Shown here one piece after another: positions 16,538-62,799 of a stretch of DNA of 64,000 nucleotides. The notes beneath the pieces are model-generated. The model was not told the origin of the DNA. It saw only the letters and a program-made list of their open reading frames with translations, and did not search any database. Position 1 is the stretch's first letter. Every line of letters begins with the position of its first letter. Source of the stretch: an uncultured Bacteroidota bacterium (GTDB lineage: Bacteria; Bacteroidota; Bacteroidia; Flavobacteriales; Schleiferiaceae). Location: positions 1-64,000 of the forward strand of contig CAJXNI010000014.1 in assembly GCA_913057235.1 (NCBI GenBank), given 5' to 3'. The position numbers and the translations under genes were made by a program.

Positions 16538-17797
16538 CTAGAGCATTTGCCAACGGTAGGCATCTAGCTTTAAAAAGATGAATAAGAGAATAGTAAATCC
16601 CCAAAGGGATGAACCGCCATAACTGAAAAAGGGAAGTGGGATACCAATTACCGGGGCCAGCCCAATAGTCATGGCAATATTTATGGTGAAATGGAAAAAC
16701 AGAATGGCGGCCACGGAATACCCATACACGCGGGCAAAGGTAGATTTTTGCCTTTCAGCCAGAAAAACAAGTCTGAAAAAGAAAATGGTAAAAAGCAGGA
16801 TAAGCAGTGTGCTTCCCAAAAAGCCCCATTCTTCACCCACGGTGCAAAAAATAAAATCGGTGCTTTGCTCAGGTACAAAGTCAAATTTAGTTTGGGTGCC
16901 TTGCAGGTAACCTTTACCACTAAAACCACCAGAGCCTATGGCAATCATACTTTGATTGGTATTGTAGCCAATACCCTGTGGGTCATCTGCCTTTCCTAAA
17001 AGAATATTGATTCGGTTACGGTGGCGGTCTTCTAAAAGATTGTTGAAGGTGTAGTCCACTGTTTGAATAAATGCTGCGCAAATCCCAAAAATGATTATGA
17101 TTCGCCAAATAAACCTCTTCGCATGACGAGTGATAAACCAAATTATCAAAGCCAACATGGCCAGAGCTACTGTAAGGTAAAGAGGGTCTATTAACAAACT
17201 TAGAATAAAGAGAATAGCCAGGCTAAAGCCGATGAAGATGTAAGCCGGTGAAAGGCCTTCACGGTAAAGAACTAAAATAAAAGCAGCGTATACCAAAGCT
17301 GAACCAGGGTCAGGTTGGGGAATAATTAGTAGGGCAGGTAAAAAAATGATGATAAAGGCCGAAAGCTGATTTTTAAAACGGGTGAGGTCTCGTGGTTTTG
17401 TGCTTAAAAATCGGCCTAGAGCCAGTGCAGTTGCAAATTTGGCAAACTCTGAGGGCTGAATGCTAAAACCGCCTAACACAAACCAGCTACGAGCACCTGA
17501 TATTTCCTTTCCAAAAAGTAATACGCCCAACAAAGAAAGCATACTTACCAGGTAAATGGGATAGGCTAAGGTACTGTACACTGAGCCATCAATGAGGATG
17601 ATAAGAATGGCAAGAAAAACGGTGGTGATAATCCAGAGCAGCTGCTTTCCGTAGCGTTCAGAGAAATCTATAATACTGTTGCTCTCAGCATTAAAAACGG
17701 CCGCGTAAATATTGCCCCACCCCATTAATACTAAAGTGAAAAAGAGTAGAATGCTAAGCCAGTCTATATTTTGAAAAATATTCGTGTTTTCTCTCAT
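16538..17797 (-). CDS. rodA: RodA, SEDS peptidoglycan glycosyltransferase
   Basis: 419 residues with about ten transmembrane helices. SEDS landmarks are visible: GARSWFVLGGFSIQPSEFAK (about 100-120), PQPDPGSALVY (about 165), and the C-terminal IGSGGFSGKGYLQGTQTKFDFVPEQSTDFIF and GLAPVIGIPLPFFSYGGSS. RodA polymerises lipid II in the elongasome together with the class B PBP encoded next to it. Its ATG overlaps the stop of mrdA (17794-17797). It ends the operon; an 8-bp inverted repeat overlaps its stop codon. Confidence 0.96.
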   Translation of the reverse strand: MRENTNIFQNIDWLSILLFFTLVLMGWGNIYAAVFNAESNSIIDFSERYGKQLLWIITTVFLAILIILIDGSVYSTLAYPIYLVSMLSLLGVLLFGKEISGARSWFVLGGFSIQPSEFAKFATALALGRFLSTKPRDLTRFKNQLSAFIIIFLPALLIIPQPDPGSALVYAAFILVLYREGLSPAYIFIGFSLAILFILSLLIDPLYLTVALAMLALIIWFITRHAKRFIWRIIIIFGICAAFIQTVDYTFNNLLEDRHRNRINILLGKADDPQGIGYNTNQSMIAIGSGGFSGKGYLQGTQTKFDFVPEQSTDFIFCTVGEEWGFLGSTLLILLFTIFFFRLVFLAERQKSTFARVYGYSVAAILFFHFTINIAMTIGLAPVIGIPLPFFSYGGSSLWGFTILLFIFLKLDAYRWQML

Positions 17798-19653
17798 GGC
17801 TCTTGCGCTTCAGCCATTAGTTGGTTTGCGTAGAGTTTCTGAAGCTGTTTTTGATACTCTTCAGATAAGTCACCCTCCATCATGCGTTTTTCCATGGCGG
17901 GTCTATCTACTTCACCGGTGAGGTAGCGCTCCATCATTAGACTGGCAATAGGAGCGGCCCAACGGCTACCCCAATAACCGTTTTCAACGGTAATGGCAAT
18001 GGCAATTTTTGGATCGTCTTTGGGCGCAAAGGCAATGAAAATACTGTGGTCTTGACCATGCGGGTTTTCAGCGGTTCCGGTCTTACCGCACATTTCAATG
18101 CTATCATGTTTACTCCAGCGCGCGGTTCCTTTGTCAAATACGTCAAACATTCCCTCAATTACAACCCCAAAATGAGAGCTGTCAATAGTGGTATATTTAG
18201 GCTGGGTAAAGTTGGGGTCTTCAATTGGTTCCGAGCCAATTTTTTTTACAATATGGGGGGTGTAGTAAAATCCACGGTTGGCAATAGCTGCGGTCATATT
18301 GGCCATTTGTATGGGTGTTAAAAGTAACTCGCCCTGTCCGATACCCAATGAAATGGTGGTCACCGCCTTCCAGCCTGTGTAACCTAAATTTCGGTCGTAA
18401 TAATCAGCATCAGGCACCAGGCCTCTGCGCCCTGTAGGCAAATCATTGTTCAGGAAGCGTCCGAGATTAAAGCTTTTCACGTGCCTGCTCCACACATTCA
18501 TACCTTCCTGAGAGCTGGGGTATTTTTCAATTATTCCTTTAAATACATTGCAGTAATAGTTATTACAGCTTTTACTGATACTGGTACGTAGCGAAATGGG
18601 GTAGCCTGTGCCACAGTGACAAGCCACATGCAAGCGCCCGTAATGAAAACCATGGTGGCAGGTGTAGGTAGTGTTGGGTGTAATAGTACCCTCTTGCAAA
18701 CCAATGAGGGCATTGATAACTTTAAAAGGCGAGCCTGGAGGGTATTCGGCCAGTAAACCACGGTCAAACAGAGGTTTTTCAATACTGTCTAAATACAGTT
18801 TACTGTAATTTTTGCTACGTTCTCGTCCTACCAAAAGTTCTGGGTTGTAACTGGGGCTGCTTACCAAGCAAAGAATTTCACCGGTTGCAGGCTCTATGGC
18901 CACCACGCTGCCCCGCTTATTCTGCATCAGCGCTTCACCGTATTTTTGCAGTTCAATATCTAAGGTGCTATGTACGTCATAACCAGGCTGGGGTAATGTG
19001 TCATAAACGCCATCCGCAAAAGAGCCCTTTACTCGGTTGTGCACATCTACCAGTTTAAATTCAGTGCCGGTTTTACCGCGCAGTACCTCTTCATAGCTTT
19101 TTTCTATGCCGGTTTTCCCGATTAAATCGCCTTTAGCGTAGCCAGGGTTTGCCTTTATAAACTGGGGGCTGGCCTCACCAATGAAGCCCAAAACATTGGC
19201 TCCGGCTTTTGTACGATACTCTCTTAAAATACGCTTTTGCGGAAAGAAGCCCGGGTAATTATGTAGTTGTTCTTGCAAATAGGCGTAGTGGCTGCGGCTC
19301 AATTGCTTGACAAATATTGATGGTTTTACAGGACTGTAACTTTTAGCCCTTGAAAGTCTATTATGTACAGACTCTTTAGGAATCCCTAACAGTTGGGCAA
19401 AAGCCAAGGTATCTTCAAGTTGAACGTTGGCGGGCACTACCATGAGGTCATAGGCACTTTGGTTGCCCACCAATAGCCTGCCATTACGATCGTAGATGAG
19501 CCCTCGACCAGGGTAAATTTTCTCTTGACGAACTACGTTATTGCGGGCTGAAAGCTTGTACTCATCTTTAATAACCTGTATATGAAAAAGGCGACCGGTG
19601 AAGACCAGACCCACTGCAATAAAAAAGAAATAAAATAAATGCTTGCGCTGCAT
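17794..19653 (-). CDS. mrdA: Penicillin-binding protein 2 (class B transpeptidase)
   Basis: 619 residues: a single N-terminal transmembrane helix (about 5-22), a dimerisation domain (40-200, GRGLIYDRNGRLL) and a transpeptidase domain (about 245-595). Active-site motifs are S308-P-F-K311, S362-C-N364 and K524-T-G. It cross-links new peptidoglycan in the elongasome with RodA. Start and stop overlap mreD and rodA by 1 and 4 bases. A Cys/His-rich stretch at about 332-348 (TCHHGFHYG, ACHCGTG) is noticeable in the transpeptidase domain. Confidence 0.96.
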   Translation of the reverse strand: MQRKHLFYFFFIAVGLVFTGRLFHIQVIKDEYKLSARNNVVRQEKIYPGRGLIYDRNGRLLVGNQSAYDLMVVPANVQLEDTLAFAQLLGIPKESVHNRLSRAKSYSPVKPSIFVKQLSRSHYAYLQEQLHNYPGFFPQKRILREYRTKAGANVLGFIGEASPQFIKANPGYAKGDLIGKTGIEKSYEEVLRGKTGTEFKLVDVHNRVKGSFADGVYDTLPQPGYDVHSTLDIELQKYGEALMQNKRGSVVAIEPATGEILCLVSSPSYNPELLVGRERSKNYSKLYLDSIEKPLFDRGLLAEYPPGSPFKVINALIGLQEGTITPNTTYTCHHGFHYGRLHVACHCGTGYPISLRTSISKSCNNYYCNVFKGIIEKYPSSQEGMNVWSRHVKSFNLGRFLNNDLPTGRRGLVPDADYYDRNLGYTGWKAVTTISLGIGQGELLLTPIQMANMTAAIANRGFYYTPHIVKKIGSEPIEDPNFTQPKYTTIDSSHFGVVIEGMFDVFDKGTARWSKHDSIEMCGKTGTAENPHGQDHSIFIAFAPKDDPKIAIAITVENGYWGSRWAAPIASLMMERYLTGEVDRPAMEKRMMEGDLSEEYQKQLQKLYANQLMAEAQEP

Positions 19654-20165
19654 TACAAGGTTGGGCGCTTTCTAAGATTCCACAATAAATATAGCAGTAT
19701 AAATAAAAAACTGAAAAGACTACTGTGTACCGTTCGTGTTAAAAGTGTGCTTAAGTGTTCAAAGCTAAAAGCCTCTATGGCAAACAGAAAAAAGTGATGA
19801 ATTAAAACCGAGAGCAAGCAGTAAATAGCTATAAATATAAACCCAACCTCACCTAGATTTAGGCTCTCACGAGTTTCATCTTGATTTTTTTTAAGGAGTA
19901 CGTTTAGCAATACCGGCCTCAGGTAGGCAAATGCCGTGCAAGAGGCTGCATGCACCCCGGCACTGTTTTCAAAAATATCTATGACTAAGCCCATGGCAAA
20001 GCTAATCAGCAAAATGCTACTGCGGCTAAGGCTAGGTGGGAGTAAAATCAAAAATAAGATGTAGACATAGGGGTTTAAAAAACCACTAAACAGGAATTCA
20101 TTAAAAATCAATACCTGCAGGAGGCATGTCAGCGTGAAGTATAGTATGAGTTTACCTGTTTTCAT
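19653..20165 (-). CDS. mreD: MreD, rod shape-determining membrane protein
   Basis: 170 residues, nearly all hydrophobic, with about five transmembrane helices. The sequence itself is poorly conserved in this family; assignment rests on length, hydrophobicity (LFSGFLNPYVYILFLILLP near the start), and position exactly between mreC and mrdA with 4- and 1-base overlaps. It supports MreC in coupling MreB filaments to the PBP2-RodA complex. Confidence 0.92.
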   Translation of the reverse strand: MKTGKLILYFTLTCLLQVLIFNEFLFSGFLNPYVYILFLILLPPSLSRSSILLISFAMGLVIDIFENSAGVHAASCTAFAYLRPVLLNVLLKKNQDETRESLNLGEVGFIFIAIYCLLSVLIHHFFLFAIEAFSFEHLSTLLTRTVHSSLFSFLFILLYLLWNLRKRPTL

Positions 20166-20983
20166 GGTGCGCTGCTCAAGCTATCTAATTCATATTTTAA
20201 TTTATCCTTAATAATGTAAACATTTTCCAGGCGTGTAAAGTCGGTACTTAGTTTAACTTTAATCCGGTAAAAGTTTTGATCTGTCTGCAAGGTTTTACCG
20301 GCTACCACGCCAATCATTAGCCCCTCTGGAAAAACCCGGGAACGGGAATCGGATATAATGGTGTCACCTTCTTTTATTTCGGCATAACGAGGTATATCTT
20401 CTACAAAAGCTTCCTGGTGGCTATTGCCATCCCACGAAAGTGGTCCAAAATACCCGCTCTTTTGAAATTTACCGCTAATGGTGATACCAGGATTTATTAT
20501 GGGTAATACCGATGCAAAGTTTTGACTGACGTTGGTAACAATTCCTACCACCCCATTAGGGCCAGCTACTCCCATATTGGGTTTTATGCCGCTTTTCCGG
20601 CCTTTATCAAGCGTGAGATAGTTGTTGTATTTAGCATAGGTACCGCTAATTACCCGGGCACTTACGGTGGTGTAGCGTATTTGGTGAACACTGTCTTGTA
20701 TGGTGTCGGCACCGTAAGACTGAAAAACTCTGCTTTGATCCAGTAGATTTCTTAGCCGTACATTCTCACGCACTAAATTTTCGTTCTCAACCTTTAAGTT
20801 TAGGTAACTACTCAGATTATTGAACTGTTGATTTATTTGACCACTAACCGTATTGGTAGCACTTAAAAAGGTAGCTCTTTGAAAACTCCTTTGATTTAAA
20901 ATGAGGCTAAACGCAATTATTTCTAATATCAGGAAAAGCAGAAAAATTCTTGCTCTTTTTAGAATTAGAAGAATGATGCGCAT
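20162..20983 (-). CDS. mreC: MreC, elongasome scaffold
   Basis: 273 residues: a membrane helix (about 8-28), a coiled coil (about 50-90, LSSYLNLKVENENLVRENVRLRNLL) and a beta-rich C-terminal domain with the family signatures LDKGRKSGIKPNMGVAGPNGVVG (about 127-150) and EGDTIISDSRSRVFPEGLMIG. It activates PBP2 in the periplasm. Seven bases separate it from mreB. Confidence 0.95.
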   Translation of the reverse strand: MRIILLILKRARIFLLFLILEIIAFSLILNQRSFQRATFLSATNTVSGQINQQFNNLSSYLNLKVENENLVRENVRLRNLLDQSRVFQSYGADTIQDSVHQIRYTTVSARVISGTYAKYNNYLTLDKGRKSGIKPNMGVAGPNGVVGIVTNVSQNFASVLPIINPGITISGKFQKSGYFGPLSWDGNSHQEAFVEDIPRYAEIKEGDTIISDSRSRVFPEGLMIGVVAGKTLQTDQNFYRIKVKLSTDFTRLENVYIIKDKLKYELDSLSSAP

Positions 20984-20990
20984 AGAGGTC

Positions 20991-22016
20991 TTAACTCATC
21001 AGGAAATTGAACTTTCCTACATTCTTTAGTGCTATGCCAGTACCCCTGACTACGGCTCTCAAGGGGTCTTCTGCCACATAAACTGGTAAATCGGTTTTTT
21101 GAGAGATACGTTTATCCAAACCGCGCAGCATAGAACCGCCCCCGGCCATGTAAATACCGCTGTTGTAAATATCTGCGGCCAGCTCTGGGGGAGTCATTGA
21201 AAGAGCTTCCATAATGGCATCTTCAATGCGGATGATAGATTTGTCCAAGGCTTTGGCAATTTCTTTGAAGGTAATAACCAGTTGCTTAGGCTTACCGCTG
21301 ATAAGGTCTCGGCCTTGTACCGCCATTTCATTGGGTGGGTTTTCCAAATTATCCAGCGCAGAACCACACTGAATTTTTATTTCTTCAGCGGTACGCTCAC
21401 CAATGTAGAGGTTATGCTGGGTGCGCATGTAGTAGGCAATATCATTGGTAAACACATCACCTGCTACTTTTATGGATTTATCGGCTACAATGCCTCCCAG
21501 GGCCAGAACGGCTATTTCGGTTGTACCCCCACCAATATCAATAATCATATTTCCCTTAGGCTCTTCAACATCTACCCCGGTACCAATTGCGGCCGCCATA
21601 GGTTCATGAATGAGATAAACTTCACGGGCTCCAGCGTGCTGTGCAGAATCTTTCACCGCTCTTTTTTCTACTTCGGTAATGCCTGAGGGGATGCAGATGA
21701 CCATGCGCAGAGCAGGTGGGACCACTCGGTTTTTTAGGGCGGGAATGCTTTTAATCATCTCTCTGATCATGGCTTCTGAGGCCTCAAAATCAGCAATTAC
21801 CCCGTCTTTTAGTGGACGTATAGTCTTAATGTTCTCGTGGGTTTTGCCGTGCATTTGGCGCGCTTGCTGGCCTACCGCAATAATTTTATTGGTACTACGG
21901 TCTTTAGCCACAATAGAGGGCGCATCAACCACCACTTTATCTTTATGAATGATTAGGGTGTTAGCAGTACCCAGGTCAATGGCTATGTCTTCTCTAAATA
22001 AATCAAATATCCCCAT
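20991..22016 (-). CDS. mreB: MreB, actin-like rod-shape protein
   Basis: 341 residues, full length. Actin-fold nucleotide motifs are clear: IAIDLGTANTLI (phosphate 1), NMIIDIGGGTTEIAVLALGGIV (phosphate 2) and IYMAGGGSMLRGLDKRI (adenosine). It forms membrane-bound filaments that steer the peptidoglycan synthesis complex encoded downstream. It begins 14 bases after purH, so mre expression may depend partly on the purH promoter. Confidence 0.98.
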   Translation of the reverse strand: MGIFDLFREDIAIDLGTANTLIIHKDKVVVDAPSIVAKDRSTNKIIAVGQQARQMHGKTHENIKTIRPLKDGVIADFEASEAMIREMIKSIPALKNRVVPPALRMVICIPSGITEVEKRAVKDSAQHAGAREVYLIHEPMAAAIGTGVDVEEPKGNMIIDIGGGTTEIAVLALGGIVADKSIKVAGDVFTNDIAYYMRTQHNLYIGERTAEEIKIQCGSALDNLENPPNEMAVQGRDLISGKPKQLVITFKEIAKALDKSIIRIEDAIMEALSMTPPELAADIYNSGIYMAGGGSMLRGLDKRISQKTDLPVYVAEDPLRAVVRGTGIALKNVGKFNFLMS

Positions 22017-22030
22017 TTGGTGCGGGTTGC

Positions 22031-23536
22031 TTAATGTTTAAAATGTCTGGTTCCAGTAAATACCATGGCCATATTTTGGTTGTTGCAGTAATCAATGCTG
22101 AGTTGATCTTTTATGGAGCCTCCGGGCTGAATTACTGCACCAATAGCTTCTTCATGGGCTATTTCTACACAATCTGGAAAGGGGAAGAAAGCATCTGAAG
22201 CCATCACCGCGTCTTTTAAATCAAAACTAAAAGCCTTAGCTTTAGTAATAGCCTGTTTAAGAGCGTCTACGCGCGATGTTTGTCCTGTTCCCCCGGCCAG
22301 CAATTGTTTGTTTTTGGCTAATATAATAGTATTACTTTTTGTGTGCTTACAAATTTTGGAAGCAAAAATCAAATCCTCCAATTCTTGCGCATTAGGTGTT
22401 CTTTTTGTTTTTACTTCCAGCCTGTCAGCTTCATCGGTTTTAAAATCACGCTCTTGGGCTAAAATGCCGTTTAAAAGTGTGCGATACTGCATTTTGGGCG
22501 GATCAAAATCTTTGAGAATAAGAATGATCCGGTTTTTCTTTTGTTTCAGTACTTCCAAAGCCTCCTGTGCATAACTGGGCGCAATTATAATTTCAAAGAA
22601 AATTTTGTGCATTTCTCGTGCAGTGGCCAAGTCAATTTCACGATTACTAATTAGCACACCCCCAAAGGCGGAAACGGGGTCTCCCGCTAGCGCATCATTC
22701 CAAGCTTTGGTCAGATTTTCGCGCGAAGCTAAGCCACAGGCATTGTTGTGCTTTAAAACGGCTACGGTGGTTTCCTCAAATTCTTGAATGAGGTTTACGG
22801 CTGCATCAGCATCTAAGAGGTTATTGTAAGAGAGTTCCTTGCCGTGTAGCTGCTCAAAAACGTCTTGTAAATTTCCGTAAAAGCTTCCTTTTTGGTGCGG
22901 GTTTTCACCGTATCTAAGGGTGTTTTCTCCTCCCAGGCTCAGGGCCGAGGACCTTCCGGTCAAATATTGGTTTATGGCGATATCGTAATGGGCAGAAATT
23001 TGGAAAGCTTCCCCCGCAAATATTTTTCGGTCTTCTTCAGAAGGTGCACCCTTTTCTAAAATGGCAATGGCCGGCTGGTATAGTTTACGGCTGGGTATAA
23101 TCCAGCAATCTTGATAGTTTTTAGCTGCCGCTCTAATGAGGGAGATGCCTCCAATATCAATTTTTTCAATAATCTCAGTATGGGTGCCGCCTCCTTTTAC
23201 AGTTTCTGAAAAAGGGTAGAGGTCTACTACCACCACAGCTATATTGGGAATTTCAAATTCTGCCACTTGGGCTTGATCTTCTGCTTCCTTTCTACGGGCT
23301 AAAATGCCTCCAAAAACCTTGGGGTGTAAGGTTTTAACCCGGCCACCTAAAATACTGGGATAGGAGGTGAGGTCTTCAACAGCCTCTACTGTGAATCCTG
23401 CTTCTTCCAAATGCTGGCGAGTACCTCCGGTAGATAATAGACCGAAGCCTCGGTTTACCAGAGCCTGAGCTAAATCAGTGAGTCCATCTTTATGAAACAC
23501 AGAAAGTAACGCGTAGGACTTGGATTGTAAAGACAT
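22031..23536 (-). CDS. purH: PurH, AICAR transformylase / IMP cyclohydrolase
   Basis: 501 residues. The N-terminal MGS-like cyclohydrolase domain (about 1-190) has STGGTRQHLEEAG and GGRVKTLHPKVFGGIL; the C-terminal AICAR transformylase domain has LRYGENPHQKG, AVLKHNNACGLA (catalytic Lys-His) and FFPFPDCVEIA. It performs the last two steps of purine synthesis in the cytoplasm. An exact -7 element sits 17 bases upstream of the ATG. It leads the mre genes, an order common in flavobacteria. Confidence 0.98.
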   Translation of the reverse strand: MSLQSKSYALLSVFHKDGLTDLAQALVNRGFGLLSTGGTRQHLEEAGFTVEAVEDLTSYPSILGGRVKTLHPKVFGGILARRKEAEDQAQVAEFEIPNIAVVVVDLYPFSETVKGGGTHTEIIEKIDIGGISLIRAAAKNYQDCWIIPSRKLYQPAIAILEKGAPSEEDRKIFAGEAFQISAHYDIAINQYLTGRSSALSLGGENTLRYGENPHQKGSFYGNLQDVFEQLHGKELSYNNLLDADAAVNLIQEFEETTVAVLKHNNACGLASRENLTKAWNDALAGDPVSAFGGVLISNREIDLATAREMHKIFFEIIIAPSYAQEALEVLKQKKNRIILILKDFDPPKMQYRTLLNGILAQERDFKTDEADRLEVKTKRTPNAQELEDLIFASKICKHTKSNTIILAKNKQLLAGGTGQTSRVDALKQAITKAKAFSFDLKDAVMASDAFFPFPDCVEIAHEEAIGAVIQPGGSIKDQLSIDYCNNQNMAMVFTGTRHFKH

Positions 23537-25880: not shown

Positions 25881-28841
25881 ATGAAGAAGAGCTTTTTTAA
25901 ACTCTGCGTATTATTAGTCTTAGCGCTCTTTATATTACCTCTAAAGGCTCAGGTAGCCGTTGGGGACATTGACTTGCAACAAGTTAGTAATAATGTAAGC
26001 AATCCTACCGGTATTTGTCAATGCGATACCATACGAGTACGTTATGAGCTCAAGGCAAGTTCCAATTTTTCTTCCACTTCTGAATTTGTTTATCAATTCG
26101 CTAATCCCATTAACGCTTGGTCGAGCGCTACAGAGTTGAATTTATTGGCGCTGTATACGGATATCAGTACAGTTCCACCAACAACAGCCACCAGTGTTTT
26201 AGACACATTTAGCCCTGGTTTGCTCTGGGCCGATTTGGCTGTGCCTTGCAATGCTTCTTTATTTGGTTCTAGCTTAAGAATTATAAATCGCGATGTGAAT
26301 GGAAACATTACCCCAAATGGTGCTTCGGACACAGCCTTTTTTAATGTAAATAGAATTCCCACGGTAGCGCAGATTGACTCCATCGCATTAATTCAAAATA
26401 TGATGCGGCTTGATACTTTTGACAATCCGTACACCACCAGTACTAAAGACGTGGGGTTTTGCCCTAGAGGAGACTCTATATTTTTGCGAGTTCAAAATGA
26501 CGGCAATTCCTATCAATGGTGGAATGGATCCAATCCTATACTTGGTGCCACAGATGATTCTATTATCGTGGGGCAATCGGGATTGTATTACTGTGAAGTG
26601 ATTGACGGGCCCTGTTCTATATTTTCAGATACAGTAGTGGTAGCTGCTTTGAATACGCCTACCACTGTAACCGCTGATTTATCCTTGGCGGCAAACGCTG
26701 GAGTTTTTCGGGCCGATAATCCGGACCCCACTGCGCCCAATCGCCTACCTTTAGACTCACTTGAACTTTGTGAAGATGGTACCGCCCTCTTGCAAGGTCC
26801 AGTAGTTCCCCCCAACACTGGGCTAACTTTTACCTACCAGTGGGTCACCGATTCGTTTAATCCGGTTACTGCTGAGCGCGATAAGTTTGCCATAGTGGGT
26901 GCTACCGGTCAAAATCTAACTGTGGGGCCTAATAATTCCAGAAAGGGCTTTAATCAATACTGGGTAGTAGTGAACGATGGTTTTTGTACTGATACTACCT
27001 CAGATCTTAACAGTTACCGAGTGCTTATAGACTCTATACCGCAAACCGAGGTGGTGGGAATTCCTTTCCCGGGACTGACAGGCCCCACGGTGCGCAATGA
27101 AATTTGCATGCGCGATTCCGTGCTGCTTTCAGCCGAGCCCCAGGTGCCTACACCAGGTTGGAAGTATCAGTGGCAGTGGTATGACCCCACTGCTCCGGCT
27201 GGAACTAATCCATGGAGGGCTGTAGCTGGCTCTGCCACCACCGGGTTTGATACCTTTCCAAACTTGAAGGTTGATACTAGCCTTTCAGACCCTGGACAAC
27301 CCTACTTTCAAACTCCTAAACCACTACTGCGCTACTTCCGTTTGAGAACGGCTACCCGTACGGTTTTTACCAATCAAGAGGTATGTGTTTCTTTTTCTGA
27401 TAGTGTGGCTGTACGTTGGTTTCCAGATTATAGTCTAAGTCTGGCTCCTAACCAGCCTGGTATAAATAGTATTGGTCAGGACAGTATAAACTTCTGTGAA
27501 GATGATACGGCCGAAGTTGTTGCTCCTGGCACTCCGGCCGACCTGCAGAACTTTGGCTATTTCTATTCCTATCAATGGCTTTCTGACTCACTTGATCCTA
27601 ACTTGGGATCAAGAGTGCGCTACCCCTTAGCCGGTGAAACGAATCAATCATTATTGATTGATTCTACAGGAAACTACTGGGTAGTTATTGACGATGGAAT
27701 TTGCCTGGATACCTCTAGTGTGTACAGAGCTTTTGTAGACACTATCCCTGAAACTACCATCTCAGAGGTTGAGTTTCCTGGAGGGAGCACTTTAACCACC
27801 CTCAATCTTTGTTTATACGATAGTGCCTTAGTTTCGGCTGCCGATACGGTGGGCGGATTATTACCCTGGAATTACCAATGGCAGCAGTTGGATCCTGTGG
27901 CTGGAACCTGGAACAATTTGGCCGATGATACCTTGGTGACACTGCAGATAGACACAACGTACAAGCGTTTTCAAGAAGATACTGCATTCTTCCGCTTGGC
28001 TACCTCATACCAAAATCGATTTGGCATAACAACCTGTAACTTCTTCACCGATAGTTTACAAGTAATCTTTTACGATTCACCTAATGTGACTTACATTCCG
28101 GGAGATTCTGTGGGTATTTGTCCGGGTGATAGCATTCTTTTTGTTGCTCAAGGCAACTTCACCAGTTTCAGCTGGGAGAATGGCCAAGTACTTTCTGCGT
28201 CACGCTATATTAATACACCAGGTGAATACCCCATTGAGGCGGTAGGCGTAAATGGTTGTATAACTTTTGACACCGTAACGGTATTCCCATTAACGGTGAA
28301 TGCAGCAGCGGGGCCAGACCAAACTGTGGGGTCTGGTGAAATTGTACAGTTAGAGGCCTTTGGCGGAACTTCCTACCGTTGGTTTGCCAGTGAACCACTT
28401 GAATTCTCAGACATGCTGAGTCAGCGTATCACGGTAAGCAAAACTTTAGCCCCGGGTGAAACTTCAGACACCATTACTATTTATGTAGAAGTGACCAACC
28501 AAAGAGGTTGTACGGGTCTTGATTCTTTACTGTTGATTGTTACCAGCAATATTCCAGACGGCATAAGCGATATTAGCAAGGCCTACAATATTTTCACCCC
28601 TAATGGTGACGGCCTCAATGACCTTTGGGACATCTCAGATCTTGTAAACGGAGACAATTGCGAGCTGATTATTATGAATCGCTGGGGTAGCACCGTTTAC
28701 GAAGATGAAAGCTTTACCGGACAATGGACAGGGGTGGATAATGGTGGCAATGAATTGCCAGATGGCACCTATTATTACATACTGGACTGTGAAGGTGAAG
28801 TGCGTATGAAAAACGCAGTAACCATAATCCGCAACCAATAA
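25881..28841 (+). CDS. Large secreted protein with T9SS type B C-terminal domain
   Basis: 986 residues. Signal peptide to about residue 23 (LPLKAQ). The body is a series of Cys-containing Ig-like beta modules with recurring units (LCEDGTALLQG, FCEDDTAEVVA, LCLYDSALVSA, ICPGDSILFVA) and Y-x-Q-W strands typical of adhesin-like Bacteroidota proteins. Residues about 905-986 form a gliding-motility-type (type B) sorting domain: FTPNGDGLNDLWDI, IMNRWGSTVYED, LPDGTYYYIL. It is exported by T9SS and probably surface-attached or released. The next gene encodes a PorP/SprF protein, the usual partner of type B substrates such as SprB. There is no enzyme signature. Confidence 0.92.
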   Translation: MKKSFFKLCVLLVLALFILPLKAQVAVGDIDLQQVSNNVSNPTGICQCDTIRVRYELKASSNFSSTSEFVYQFANPINAWSSATELNLLALYTDISTVPPTTATSVLDTFSPGLLWADLAVPCNASLFGSSLRIINRDVNGNITPNGASDTAFFNVNRIPTVAQIDSIALIQNMMRLDTFDNPYTTSTKDVGFCPRGDSIFLRVQNDGNSYQWWNGSNPILGATDDSIIVGQSGLYYCEVIDGPCSIFSDTVVVAALNTPTTVTADLSLAANAGVFRADNPDPTAPNRLPLDSLELCEDGTALLQGPVVPPNTGLTFTYQWVTDSFNPVTAERDKFAIVGATGQNLTVGPNNSRKGFNQYWVVVNDGFCTDTTSDLNSYRVLIDSIPQTEVVGIPFPGLTGPTVRNEICMRDSVLLSAEPQVPTPGWKYQWQWYDPTAPAGTNPWRAVAGSATTGFDTFPNLKVDTSLSDPGQPYFQTPKPLLRYFRLRTATRTVFTNQEVCVSFSDSVAVRWFPDYSLSLAPNQPGINSIGQDSINFCEDDTAEVVAPGTPADLQNFGYFYSYQWLSDSLDPNLGSRVRYPLAGETNQSLLIDSTGNYWVVIDDGICLDTSSVYRAFVDTIPETTISEVEFPGGSTLTTLNLCLYDSALVSAADTVGGLLPWNYQWQQLDPVAGTWNNLADDTLVTLQIDTTYKRFQEDTAFFRLATSYQNRFGITTCNFFTDSLQVIFYDSPNVTYIPGDSVGICPGDSILFVAQGNFTSFSWENGQVLSASRYINTPGEYPIEAVGVNGCITFDTVTVFPLTVNAAAGPDQTVGSGEIVQLEAFGGTSYRWFASEPLEFSDMLSQRITVSKTLAPGETSDTITIYVEVTNQRGCTGLDSLLLIVTSNIPDGISDISKAYNIFTPNGDGLNDLWDISDLVNGDNCELIIMNRWGSTVYEDESFTGQWTGVDNGGNELPDGTYYYILDCEGEVRMKNAVTIIRNQ

Positions 28842-28854
28842 TTTTACCAAAGCC

Positions 28855-30399
28855 ATGAAGAAGTTATCAATCGCAATTTTGTTTCTGGCTGCAGCCTTTA
28901 CCACTAAAGCGCAACAGATTCCACTATACAGCAACTATTTTTTTACACCGTATATCTACAACCCGGCCTATTCCGGTACTAGTGGTGTAACTGAAGCCAC
29001 CATTCTGCACCGCAGACAGTGGTCTGGTATTCAGGGATCCCCTGAAACCTCAGCTTTGGCTTTGAATGGTTCACTCAACGACCAAAAGATTGGCTGGAGT
29101 GTTTACGGGTTTTCGGATCAAGCAAATGTGCTTCAGCAATTAGGAGCCTATGGAAATTATGCCTATCACGTGCGTCTTTCTGAAAGCAGCACGCTGTCCT
29201 TTGGCCTTGGTGCAGGCTACTTAAATCAGACCATAGATCAAAGCGCGATTAGGGCAAAAGACCCAGGAGATGCTTTTACAGTAGTAGCCCCTAACCGAGG
29301 CACTTTTGATTTGAATGCAGGAATTAGTTTGCGTATTGCTGATTTCACCTTGGGTGCGGCCGCGCCTCAACTTCTTGCCCAAAATATTAATTACAGTGAA
29401 AATGGTGATGGTATCAATTATAACTTGATTCGTCATTATATGATAAATGCCCAGTATGATTTTAAGTTTAATGGCGATAAGCAGGTACTCAGCCCCCTCA
29501 TCATGGTTAGAGCGGCTGATCAGCAGGTGCCTGTGCAAATTGATGCGGGTTTGTTGTTTAACCTTACGGAGTACGGCTACATTGGTGCTATGTATCGTTC
29601 AGACTATGCTGTTACTGGCAACATCGGGTTAAACCTAACTGAGAATTTAACTTTTGGGTATGCCTACGACTTTTCGCTTAATGAGTACGGCTCCTCTTTC
29701 GGTACCAGCCATGAATTCATGCTAACCTACCGTTTTGGCAGCAACAAGGATAATGAACGCATGGAGAATGAGCTCAAGCGTTTGAGGTTGCAACAACGCA
29801 AACAGCGTGATGAAACGGAGGAGATTGTGGACGAAAAACTAGAAGAGTTTAAGGATACCTACCGCAGTGAACTTCAGAAAGAAATGGAAGAGCAGCGGAA
29901 GAAAATGCAGGAGGAAATGCAAAACAACGCAGGTTCGCAAAATTCAGGAAACACTGGCGGAGTAAATATGAATCGTCCAAATCAAACTGGAAATAATCAA
30001 GGTAACGCCAATAACAATCGTCCTAGTCAAGGGCTAAACAATCAAGGTGTCCGCCAGAATAATACACCAGATCAGTTCAATTATAACAATTACAATAACG
30101 CTGATAATAATGTTGGTGCCAATACCGGAAACACGAGTGGAACCGGCAGCCGCATGCAAGGTGGAAACGCAGGCTATTATATTACAGCGGGCGTGTTTAG
30201 CCGTCAGGCTAATGCTAAGTCACTGGTGACGAAATTAGCCGCGCAAGGTTACAATGCCCGTTTCTTTAGAGATAATACCAATAACTTCTATTACGTGTAC
30301 TTATTAAAATTTGATAACTACCAGGCTGCTGATCAGGCAAAAGCCAGTAACATGAATGGAAGCTATTCAGGCGACCTTTGGATTAAGGTGGTTAATTAA
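28855..30399 (+). CDS. PorP/SprF-family T9SS outer membrane protein fused to a SPOR domain
   Basis: 514 residues in four parts: a signal peptide (1-19, TTKAQ); a PorP/SprF domain (20-300) with the family start QQIPLYSNYFFTPYIYNPAYSG; a charged coiled coil (about 300-352, ENELKRLRLQQRKQRDETEE); an Asn/Gly/Gln-rich linker (about 353-433); and a SPOR domain (about 436-514, YYITAGVFSRQANAKSLV). PorP/SprF proteins bind T9SS type B substrates at the outer membrane, and SPOR domains bind glycan strands stripped of stem peptides, so this one could anchor its partner adhesin to the cell wall. It follows the large type B protein after 13 bases and ends at a strong terminator. Confidence 0.93.
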   Translation: MKKLSIAILFLAAAFTTKAQQIPLYSNYFFTPYIYNPAYSGTSGVTEATILHRRQWSGIQGSPETSALALNGSLNDQKIGWSVYGFSDQANVLQQLGAYGNYAYHVRLSESSTLSFGLGAGYLNQTIDQSAIRAKDPGDAFTVVAPNRGTFDLNAGISLRIADFTLGAAAPQLLAQNINYSENGDGINYNLIRHYMINAQYDFKFNGDKQVLSPLIMVRAADQQVPVQIDAGLLFNLTEYGYIGAMYRSDYAVTGNIGLNLTENLTFGYAYDFSLNEYGSSFGTSHEFMLTYRFGSNKDNERMENELKRLRLQQRKQRDETEEIVDEKLEEFKDTYRSELQKEMEEQRKKMQEEMQNNAGSQNSGNTGGVNMNRPNQTGNNQGNANNNRPSQGLNNQGVRQNNTPDQFNYNNYNNADNNVGANTGNTSGTGSRMQGGNAGYYITAGVFSRQANAKSLVTKLAAQGYNARFFRDNTNNFYYVYLLKFDNYQAADQAKASNMNGSYSGDLWIKVVN

Positions 30400-46126: not shown

Positions 46127-48058
46127 ATGCGCTACGCTTTCTCTTTTTTGGCTCTTCTTTTTTTCATTATATCCTTGAGTTTTTCGGCCCAAGCCGCCCA
46201 TCTTATTGGGGGCGATATTAGCTATACCTGTATGGGTAATAATCTCTACAGCGTTAAATTGAGAATGTATCGAGATTGCAACGGAGGCGGTGCCGCCTTT
46301 GACAATGTGGCGCAGGTGGCCGTGTATGACGCCAATAATTCATTAATCAATACCTTAAGCATGCAGGTAGGGCCAATCACCTCTGTGAGTAATCGCTTTC
46401 AAACCGATCCTTGCATTACCGTTCCCCCCGGTCTGTGTGTTGAATATACCGAGTATGAAGACACCATAACCTTGCCGCCTTTAGCCGGAGGCTATCTTTT
46501 AGTGCACCAGCGCTGCTGCCGCAACGCCAACATTAATAATGTGGCCAATTCCGGTACTTTGGGCAATACCTATTCCATTAGTATACCTTCGCAGGATACT
46601 TCTTGTAATAACTCTGTACAGTTTGATGGAGATATAGAGCTCTTAAGTTGTGTGGGCTTTCCCATAGATATTCCAGTAAACACTACTGAGCTAGATGGCG
46701 ACTCGGTAAGTTATCAGCTTTGCCAAATATTTGATGGTGGGGGCCAAGGTGGAGGCGCTAATTGCAGTTCAATTATTCCCATGCCCCCGTGCCCGCCTCC
46801 CTTTCAGGCCATTAATTTTCAGGCACCCAATAGTTTTAGCAACCCTATACCGGCCTCACCGGCTTTTACCATAGACTCGGTGACGGGTATGCTTAGCGGC
46901 ACGCCTACTCAAGCAGGAAACTACGTGTTAGGCATCTGCGTATCAGAATGGCGCAATGGCCAGCTCCTGAGCACCACCCGGCTTGATTATCAGTTGGCCG
47001 TTACTACCTGTGTGAAGTCAGTGATTAGCGACATGGTTACCCAAGCTGAAAACCCACAGATTAATTGCAATGGCCTAACCTTGGACTTTGAGTCAGAGTC
47101 TATTAATGCCAGTACCTTAAAATGGGATTTTGGTGATACGGCCACCGCAGCTGATACCGCAACCGGCATTACCCCTTCCTACACCTTTCCCGCGCCTGGT
47201 GACTATACCGTTACCTTAATTGCCAACCCGCGGCTTACTTGTAGTGATACCACCACCTCTGTTTTTAGGGTGTACCCCGAGGTTAATCCACGGTTTTTAT
47301 ACGATGGAGTACTCTGTTATGAAGCCAATGAAATTGATTTTTCGCCTCAGGGAAATTACCCTGCCGGCAGCACCTTTAGCTGGGATTTTGGCCCTGATGC
47401 CATTCCCAATAACAGCACTGATATCAACCCTACCGGTATTGTGTACACCCAACCAGGTGAGAAAACCATTAACCTTAAGGTGAGCTGGGCCAGCTGTGAA
47501 GAAAGCGTAACCGATACCATAAATGTACGTGCTTACACCTTAACCGTAGACGCAGGCCCTGATACCTTAATAGATCGGGGGGAGACCGTATTTTTGGAAG
47601 CCAGTGCGGGATTAGAACATTACTGGTTTGCCAATTTACCGGTAGAGTTTAACAGTCGTTTCAGCCGCAAAATCAGCAGTCAATTATTACCCAATCAAGA
47701 TTCTGTGATGTTTTACGTGCGGGTGCGAGACGCACAGGGCTGTGAGGGTTTAGACTCTGTTTTGGTAAAGGTGCGACCCGCAGACCTTAGCGAAGTAGAT
47801 AATTTCATTAGCCCCAATGGGGATGGCTTCAATGAATTTTTTGACCTGAGCGATATTAACCCCAGCGGTAACTGTGCCTTTACGGTTTTAAACCGATGGG
47901 GCGCTGTAGTGTATGAGGTAAATCGCTATGCCAATGACTGGACCGGTGTAAATCAAAGCGGTACAGCCTTACCCGATGGCACCTATTACTGGGTGTTAAA
48001 ATGCGGTTTTGAGGTTACTGGTACCGGGCCTATCACCATTTTGCGCAATGAGCGCTAG
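46127..48058 (+). CDS. Secreted PKD protein with T9SS type B C-terminal domain
   Basis: 643 residues. A signal peptide (to about residue 24, FSAQAA) precedes an HLIGGDISYTCMGNNLYSVKLRMYRDCNGG start that is common to a family of Bacteroidota surface proteins with paired Cys (RCCRNANINN). Two PKD-like domains follow (about 320-385, LKWDFGDTA, TFPAPGDYTVTLIA; and 400-465, FSWDFGPDA). The last 85 residues form a type B sorting domain (SPNGDGFNEFFDL, VLNRWGAVVYE, LPDGTYYWVL). It is exported by T9SS; probably adhesive. Unlike the 25881 gene it has no adjacent PorP/SprF partner. Confidence 0.9.
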   Translation: MRYAFSFLALLFFIISLSFSAQAAHLIGGDISYTCMGNNLYSVKLRMYRDCNGGGAAFDNVAQVAVYDANNSLINTLSMQVGPITSVSNRFQTDPCITVPPGLCVEYTEYEDTITLPPLAGGYLLVHQRCCRNANINNVANSGTLGNTYSISIPSQDTSCNNSVQFDGDIELLSCVGFPIDIPVNTTELDGDSVSYQLCQIFDGGGQGGGANCSSIIPMPPCPPPFQAINFQAPNSFSNPIPASPAFTIDSVTGMLSGTPTQAGNYVLGICVSEWRNGQLLSTTRLDYQLAVTTCVKSVISDMVTQAENPQINCNGLTLDFESESINASTLKWDFGDTATAADTATGITPSYTFPAPGDYTVTLIANPRLTCSDTTTSVFRVYPEVNPRFLYDGVLCYEANEIDFSPQGNYPAGSTFSWDFGPDAIPNNSTDINPTGIVYTQPGEKTINLKVSWASCEESVTDTINVRAYTLTVDAGPDTLIDRGETVFLEASAGLEHYWFANLPVEFNSRFSRKISSQLLPNQDSVMFYVRVRDAQGCEGLDSVLVKVRPADLSEVDNFISPNGDGFNEFFDLSDINPSGNCAFTVLNRWGAVVYEVNRYANDWTGVNQSGTALPDGTYYWVLKCGFEVTGTGPITILRNER

Positions 48059-61569: not shown

Positions 61570-62799
61570 TTATCGAAGCATTTTTAGGGCTTGCAATGCA
61601 CCAATTTTAGTGCGTCCCTTAAAGCCAATCACAAAACTGTCTTTAAAGCCCGCTTGCCTCATTTCACTTTGTAAAACCTTGGCGGCATCAAATGTTTCCA
61701 CCGGGCCTACATAATATTTAAAAAGTCCTCCTTCTTGAAGTACTTTTACGTTGTTAACGCCTTTGAAATTGGTAGCCTTCAACTCCTTGCGGCTGGCACT
61801 GGTTAGAATTTGCACTCCAAAAGAAATAGCATCCTCAGCTGTGGTGGAAGTAGTTTCAGCAGATGGGTTGGTTTTTTCAGCAGTAGATTCTGTGGTCTTA
61901 GGTTTTTCTTGAACCGTTCTAGCCGTGGTTTTCTCTTCTGGGGCTGGTTTCGGCTCTAGCGGTTTTGCAGGGTTTATTTTGGGCTTTTCAGCCGATGGCG
62001 TTTGGGTTTTTAATACAGCATCTCGCTCTTGCTTGTAATCTCGTATGGCTCTGAAAATGGCCGATGCCATGTACGATTGCCCTTGGTCACTTAAAAGAAA
62101 ATCTTCTTCGGCTGGGTTGGTTAAGAAGCCCAGCTCTACCAAAACGGCTGGCATGGCAGTGCGGCTGGTTACATACAGCGGTTGCTGCTTTACGCCTCGG
62201 TCTCTGCGGCTTACCCGCTCTCTAAACTGGTCTTGAATTTTTTTAGCTAGTAGCACACTTTGATTGAGGTAGGTGTTTTGGTACAGATTAAGAGCAATAA
62301 GGCTTTCAGGCTTGCGGGGATCAAAGCCTTCGTATTTTTCCTCGTAGTTTTCTTCTAAAAGAATGGCTGAGTTTTCTTGAATGGCCACCCGGTTTTCATC
62401 ATCGTGGTTGCGGCCCAATACCAGGCTGGTAGAACCATGTACTGATGATTTGGTAAAGGAGTCACAATGAATGGAAATAAAAAGATCACCTTCGGCTTTA
62501 TTGGCAATATCGGCTCTTTCTTTAAGCGGAATAAAGACATCTGTGCTGCGGGTGTAAACCACCTTTACTTCAGGCATATGTTCTTTGAGATAGCCACCTA
62601 GTTTTAGCGCCACTTTAAGGGCTACATCTTTTTCAGTGGTTTTGTATCTGCGTGTACCCAGGTTCCCGGGATCTTTCCCGCCATGGCCGGCATCAATAAT
62701 TATGGTGCGTATCCCGCCAGAATTGAGGGGCACTGAGCTGCTTGAGCAAAGGCTCAGAAGCAAAACTGCCAGTAAAGCAAAGTGGGTTAGTTTCCTCAA
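61570..62799 (-). CDS. N-acetylmuramoyl-L-alanine amidase with C-terminal SPOR-like domain
   Basis: 409 residues, TTG start. A signal peptide (to about 24), a zinc amidase_3 domain (about 30-260) with His in DAGHGGKDPG, His in LFISIHCDS and Glu in AVLVELGFLTN, a Pro/Lys/Thr linker (265-325) and a SPOR-like domain (328-409, FGVQILTSASRKEL). It cleaves the amide between MurNAc and the stem peptide, releasing daughter cells. SPOR targeting to denuded septal glycan is consistent with a division role. Confidence 0.93.
   Translation of the reverse strand: MRKLTHFALLAVLLLSLCSSSSVPLNSGGIRTIIIDAGHGGKDPGNLGTRRYKTTEKDVALKVALKLGGYLKEHMPEVKVVYTRSTDVFIPLKERADIANKAEGDLFISIHCDSFTKSSVHGSTSLVLGRNHDDENRVAIQENSAILLEENYEEKYEGFDPRKPESLIALNLYQNTYLNQSVLLAKKIQDQFRERVSRRDRGVKQQPLYVTSRTAMPAVLVELGFLTNPAEEDFLLSDQGQSYMASAIFRAIRDYKQERDAVLKTQTPSAEKPKINPAKPLEPKPAPEEKTTARTVQEKPKTTESTAEKTNPSAETTSTTAEDAISFGVQILTSASRKELKATNFKGVNNVKVLQEGGLFKYYVGPVETFDAAKVLQSEMRQAGFKDSFVIGFKGRTKIGALQALKMLR

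Follow-up and report, generated by a model that had tools for sequence, protein, structure and literature searches.

How the type B proteins of the type IX secretion system (T9SS) stay on the cell surface, and why some of them move while others are static, is an open question in the Bacteroidota. PorP/SprF proteins export type B substrates and then retain them at the surface. In Porphyromonas gingivalis, PorP forms a complex with PorE and the type B protein PG1035, with PorE sitting on peptidoglycan (PMC9143113). In Flavobacterium johnsoniae, a type B C-terminal domain accompanied by a PorE-like gene in the operon gives static foci, and those giving dynamic foci have no such gene (PMC12618676). 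In SprF, a Cys-X-Cys motif is invariant and a disulfide in the tail ties the carrier to the moving GldK track (PMC12635249). The locus studied here lies in a window of 64,000 nucleotides, the whole stretch of DNA that was analysed, from an uncultured member of the Schleiferiaceae. It asks what becomes of a type B protein when the carrier itself ends in a SPOR domain.

Two genes are concerned (Table 1), both on the forward strand, with the carrier reading frame starting 13 nt downstream of that of its partner. Pfam and TIGRFAM searches bear out the gene order proposed in an initial annotation of this DNA, a type B protein followed by a PorP/SprF-SPOR fusion. The partner is made of a signal peptide, two tandem blocks of Ig-like repeats, seen directly in the translation, an Ig_7 domain and a C-terminal type B sorting domain at residues 900-984 (PF13585 CHU_C, 4e-22; TIGR04131, 6e-14); it also matches PF19081 (3e-6). 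It had been labelled a T9SS type B adhesin: the sorting domain upholds the first part of that label, while the second is not supported; Ig-like repeats were found and no adhesive domain was identified in the protein. In the carrier, the PorP domain covers residues 18-292 (PF11751, 1.8e-63, 215 bits for a cut-off of 22.3) and the protein passes TIGR03519 (7.7e-69, 232.4 for a curated cut-off of 90.55).

Table 1. Features of the type B gene and of the carrier gene, with positions in the window.
Feature	Position	Strand	Basis
T9SS type B substrate, 986 aa	25881..28841	+	PF13585, PF19081, TIGR04131; repeats from translation
514-aa type B carrier, PorP/SprF-SPOR fusion	28855..30399	+	Pfam, TIGRFAM, orthologues, AlphaFold
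Signal peptide, residues 1-19	28855..28911	+	hydrophobic N-terminus, conserved AQQ next; presumed cleavage site
14-stranded FadL/PorV-like outer-membrane barrel, residues 46-294	28990..29736	+	AlphaFold DSSP, Foldseek
Single long helix (coiled-coil type), residues 298-355	29746..29919	+	AlphaFold
Asn/Gly-rich disordered linker, residues 357-436	29923..30162	+	pLDDT < 50 over 357-428; composition
SPOR domain, residues 437-514	30163..30396	+	PF05036, AlphaFold, Foldseek, hmmsearch of PDB

AlphaFold, run on 54 orthologues, predicts a barrel of 14 strands (46-294), a helix (298-355), a disordered stretch (357-428) and a SPOR fold (440-513). The top Foldseek matches of the barrel, which is a predicted model only, include FadL (2r8a) and the T9SS complex chain 8gl6_F. 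The coiled coil and the Asn/Gly-rich linker of about 80 residues, first read from the letters of the sequence, reappear in this model and in the composition of residues 357-436 (33% Asn, 16% Gly); among orthologues the linker is 20-87 residues long. By profile and by predicted fold, the C-terminal domain is a true SPOR, in line with what had been proposed for the last 80 residues or so. PF05036 matches residues 438-497 (8.9e-9, 36 bits for a cut-off of 21), and all 39 orthologous C-termini tested match it individually. Modelled alone (pLDDT 92.9), the domain follows the order beta-alpha-beta-beta-alpha-beta, and its best Foldseek match in the PDB is the peptidoglycan-binding domain of CwlC (E 3.4e-4, probability 1.00), the next entries including DedD, FtsN and RlpA with denuded glycan (6i09). 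A profile of the 39 orthologous domains, run with hmmsearch against all PDB sequences, retrieves CwlC (1.2e-6), FtsN (0.0011) and, weakly, DamX (0.39).

A chance fusion or an assembly artefact is ruled out, since the fusion is intact in more than 70 loci. A strong match is present in 33 of the 36 genomes of the window's own family, and 29 aligned orthologues share the whole architecture. The search for PorP-SPOR fusions and their neighbours that the initial annotation had suggested yielded 77 loci in named genomes, mostly Schleiferiaceae, Cryomorphaceae and Owenweeksia (Phaeocystidibacter luteus, Schleiferia thermophila and Thermaurantimonas aggregans among them). A type B gene adjoins the carrier in 75 of these 77, the other two lying at contig edges. 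Pfam further recognizes PorP-SPOR proteins in another two families of the order and one Cytophagales-like family; in Flavobacterium-like genomes (a tentative taxon label), they are recognized by an in-house SPOR model only. When 40 genomes of the class were drawn irrespective of the fusion, at least seven further ones had it, most of them backed by Pfam, and two of these fusions have TPR repeats inserted between barrel and SPOR, as in PorE. What might have passed for a peculiarity of one locus thus belongs to a class-wide PorP-SPOR group. For divergent fusions, the SPOR label depends in part on a model built with some of these same proteins; most are supported by Pfam alone. L215 and L212 score below the Pfam cut-off, and Pfam SPOR gives no match for L216 or for the Flavobacterium-like L167 and L168. 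In L212 and L216, a PorP barrel is followed by TPR repeats and then by an end that looks like SPOR, much as if PorP and PorE had been joined. In the Flavobacterium-like PorPs L298, L299 and L300, an Ala-rich coiled coil of about 700-1200 residues precedes a SPOR-like end found by the in-house model, Pfam giving no match for the two tested.

Mean pairwise identity is 0.50 in SPOR and 0.51 in the barrel, but 0.21 in the linker: the SPOR domain is constrained like the barrel, while the linker drifts. Cysteine is absent from all 54 mature orthologues, and with it the Cys-X-Cys of the C-terminal tail; the disulfide route to the moving track, as used by SprF, is therefore closed to these carriers and was ruled out.

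We consider it likely that this carrier has a wall anchor in cis and holds its type B partner static. The gene pair would code for a type B substrate and for a dedicated T9SS carrier of its own, whose barrel would collect the substrate at the translocon and keep its C-terminal domain bound in the outer membrane. The carrier tail would lie in the periplasm, where the helix and the flexible linker would bridge the gap between outer membrane and wall, and the SPOR domain would grip the glycan strands of peptidoglycan non-covalently, fixing the surface protein in place. One polypeptide would then do the job of PorP and of the separate lipoprotein PorE, the anchor in cis replacing the latter. The surface-to-wall tether, already present in the initial annotation, gains from the domain profiles, the predicted fold, the strict type B pairing, the constraint on SPOR, the lack of SprF-like cysteines and that of an adjacent PorE gene; the periplasmic tail, wall binding and the static hold are its predicted parts. 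Anchoring through a PorP paired with a wall binder has precedents in the PorP-PorE-PG1035 complex and in the static foci seen with a PorE-like neighbour. In P. gingivalis too, a PorP-family barrel holds a type B protein and is linked to peptidoglycan, but there the wall is bound in trans, by a lipoprotein with an OmpA-type domain, whereas here it would be bound in cis by a domain of SPOR type. With SprF-SprB of F. johnsoniae, the locus shares a carrier gene placed directly 3' of its type B substrate gene, the SPOR domain standing where SprF has its disulfide-forming tail. FtsN, DamX, DedD, RlpA and CwlC likewise have a wall-facing SPOR fold carried by a disordered linker. By contrast with these inner-membrane, lipoprotein or soluble proteins of division or lysis, PorP-SPOR hangs from an outer-membrane secretion carrier and has no conserved Gln.

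This Gln deserves attention. It is the residue that touches denuded glycan in RlpA (Q270) and FtsN (Q251), its equivalents matter in FtsN and DamX, and contacts in the published SPOR-glycan complex are mostly main-chain (PMC6895207). Here all 54 orthologues have Thr, Val or Ile at the corresponding strand-1 position (residue 444). This loss of the best-conserved glycan-contacting side chain counts against the anchor reading, in which ligand and affinity are only predicted; main-chain contacts soften the argument. The aromatic residue of the NAG(4) position is retained as Phe or Tyr, and Trp509, in the last SPOR strand, is invariant and possibly equivalent to DamX W416. In the same genome, the SPOR of an amidase has the Gln and a SPOR protein of HU type does not.

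These residues bear directly on where the carrier would sit. If its SPOR bound denuded glycan, it would gather carrier and surface protein at septa and new poles, as the initial annotation had considered possible. The fold indeed matches RlpA bound to such glycan (6i09) as well as CwlC, an aromatic residue occupies the NAG(4) position, Trp509 recalls DamX W416 (PMC6895207), and the genome's own amidase could supply the ligand. Septal or polar targeting is nevertheless unsupported and appears doubtful to us: the denuded-glycan specificity that it needs is made uncertain by the substitution of Gln throughout the orthologues, when the amidase SPOR of the same genome retains it, and the cluster nearby is one of elongation, not division. 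The amidase, at 61570-62799, joins Amidase_3 to a C-terminal SPOR with the glycan-binding Gln, and likely produces denuded glycan. The elongation cluster (rodA, PBP2, mreD, mreC and mreB, with purH) lies at 16538-23536 on the minus strand, some 2-9 kb upstream, and is kept in most relatives; the elongation genes are about 4 kb away, unrelated genes stand in between, and nothing is inferred from the proximity. A broader proposal makes PorP-SPOR an ancient separate carrier class that captures its type B protein at amidase-exposed glycan, for septal or polar display. We hold it to be rather improbable; if true, it would couple surface display to the state of the cell wall.

The lost Gln can be turned to another account, in which the SPOR-type fold binds a protein instead of glycan and docks the carrier to some periplasmic part of the T9SS or gliding machinery, for instance the ring of GldK and GldN or a protein like PorE. 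This fold is of the common RNP type, and the genome keeps unlinked PorE-like TPR-PD40-OmpA proteins. The PDB and Pfam matches are, however, specifically to peptidoglycan-binding SPOR domains, and a long disordered linker is more in keeping with a tether to the wall than with a docked module, so that docking seems unlikely. Still more remote is a structural role akin to that of Lpp or Pal, the fusion chiefly fixing outer membrane to wall with type B display secondary. Its near-universal presence in the family and the mreBCD neighbourhood conserved in most relatives would fit, but the pairing with a type B gene is strict, and other OmpA-type proteins are present for such a job.

Returning to the anchor in cis, a counterpart in trans is missing: there is no PorE-like gene downstream of the carrier within the window, nor any PorE-like OmpA gene in the 61 named orthologue loci that have at least 2.5 kb downstream. 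In a wider sample, a PorE-like gene follows 0 of 15 fused against 22 of 42 unfused type-B-linked carriers (Fisher 1.6e-4). With phylogenetically independent pairs, of which supported branches offer a single one, the exclusion between cis and trans was not confirmed; it is largely a clade effect. In some carriers the barrel is instead fused to OmpA, a wall-binding domain of the PorE type, which would be the same anchoring logic with another module.

Trees were built on the barrel alone, tails left out, under two models (LG+G4 and a mixture). Under both, the 27 PorP-SPOR proteins (27/27) fall on one side of a branch, whose SH-aLRT support reaches 87 with LG+G4, against 22 with the mixture model. 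An ancient single SPOR fusion is likely, with weak support under the mixture model. Several recent origins are disfavoured, one change sufficing on the best barrel tree, where the single-origin branch has a support of only 22 under the mixture model; fusions of the barrel with an OmpA domain take three changes. On the LG+G4 tree, further clades come apart: one linked to GldKLMN, with a single tail cysteine; one beside a GldJ-like gene, with two tail cysteines; one in which a PorE-like OmpA gene mostly follows; and one of bare-tail type B carriers. Proteins of the two-cysteine clade (L301, on contig 3 of the present genome G000; L261, L264, L274, L281 and others) finish with CP[KST]F or a close variant. 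Their genes sit beside one of GldJ type, most lack a type B neighbour, and the proteins are candidates for a disulfide linkage to the track. Unfused type-B-linked PorPs with a PorE-like gene downstream (within L222-L341) end in PR[YF][FL] or a near variant. The pattern was drawn from a first set, where this tail was found in 22 of 22 carriers with a PorE-like gene and 2 of 20 without; in a held-out set the counts were 2 of 3 and 2 of 12 (p 0.15). PR[YF][FL] is possibly a PorE-docking tail, which the held-out value makes a lead.

The number of clients per carrier is another matter. Genome G000 has at least 19 type B sorting domains for three full-length PorP carriers, so that carriers probably serve several clients each. 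A second type B protein, at 46127-48058 (AHLVGG-like start, PKD domains, CHU_C), has no PorP beside it, and its homologue lies directly downstream of the PorP-SPOR gene in about 20 of the 77 relatives; it may be a second client of the PorP-SPOR carrier.

In the open-access literature, we found no PorP-SPOR or PorP-OmpA fusion described as such, no paper linking a SPOR domain to PorP/SprF or to type IX secretion in the sense of a fusion, and no experimental study of a protein of the PorP-SPOR group. Each part is known; their combination in cis, its wide occurrence and its position on the carrier tree appear to be new. The comparison of carriers suggests that the fate of a type B protein might be read from the carrier tail: SPOR or OmpA in cis, a PR[YF] tail with a PorE gene, a cysteine tail or a bare tail. 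A domain of wall-binding type carried in cis offers a one-gene handle on static anchoring, and the PorP-SPOR layout suggests how some surface proteins could be immobilised on the cell wall.
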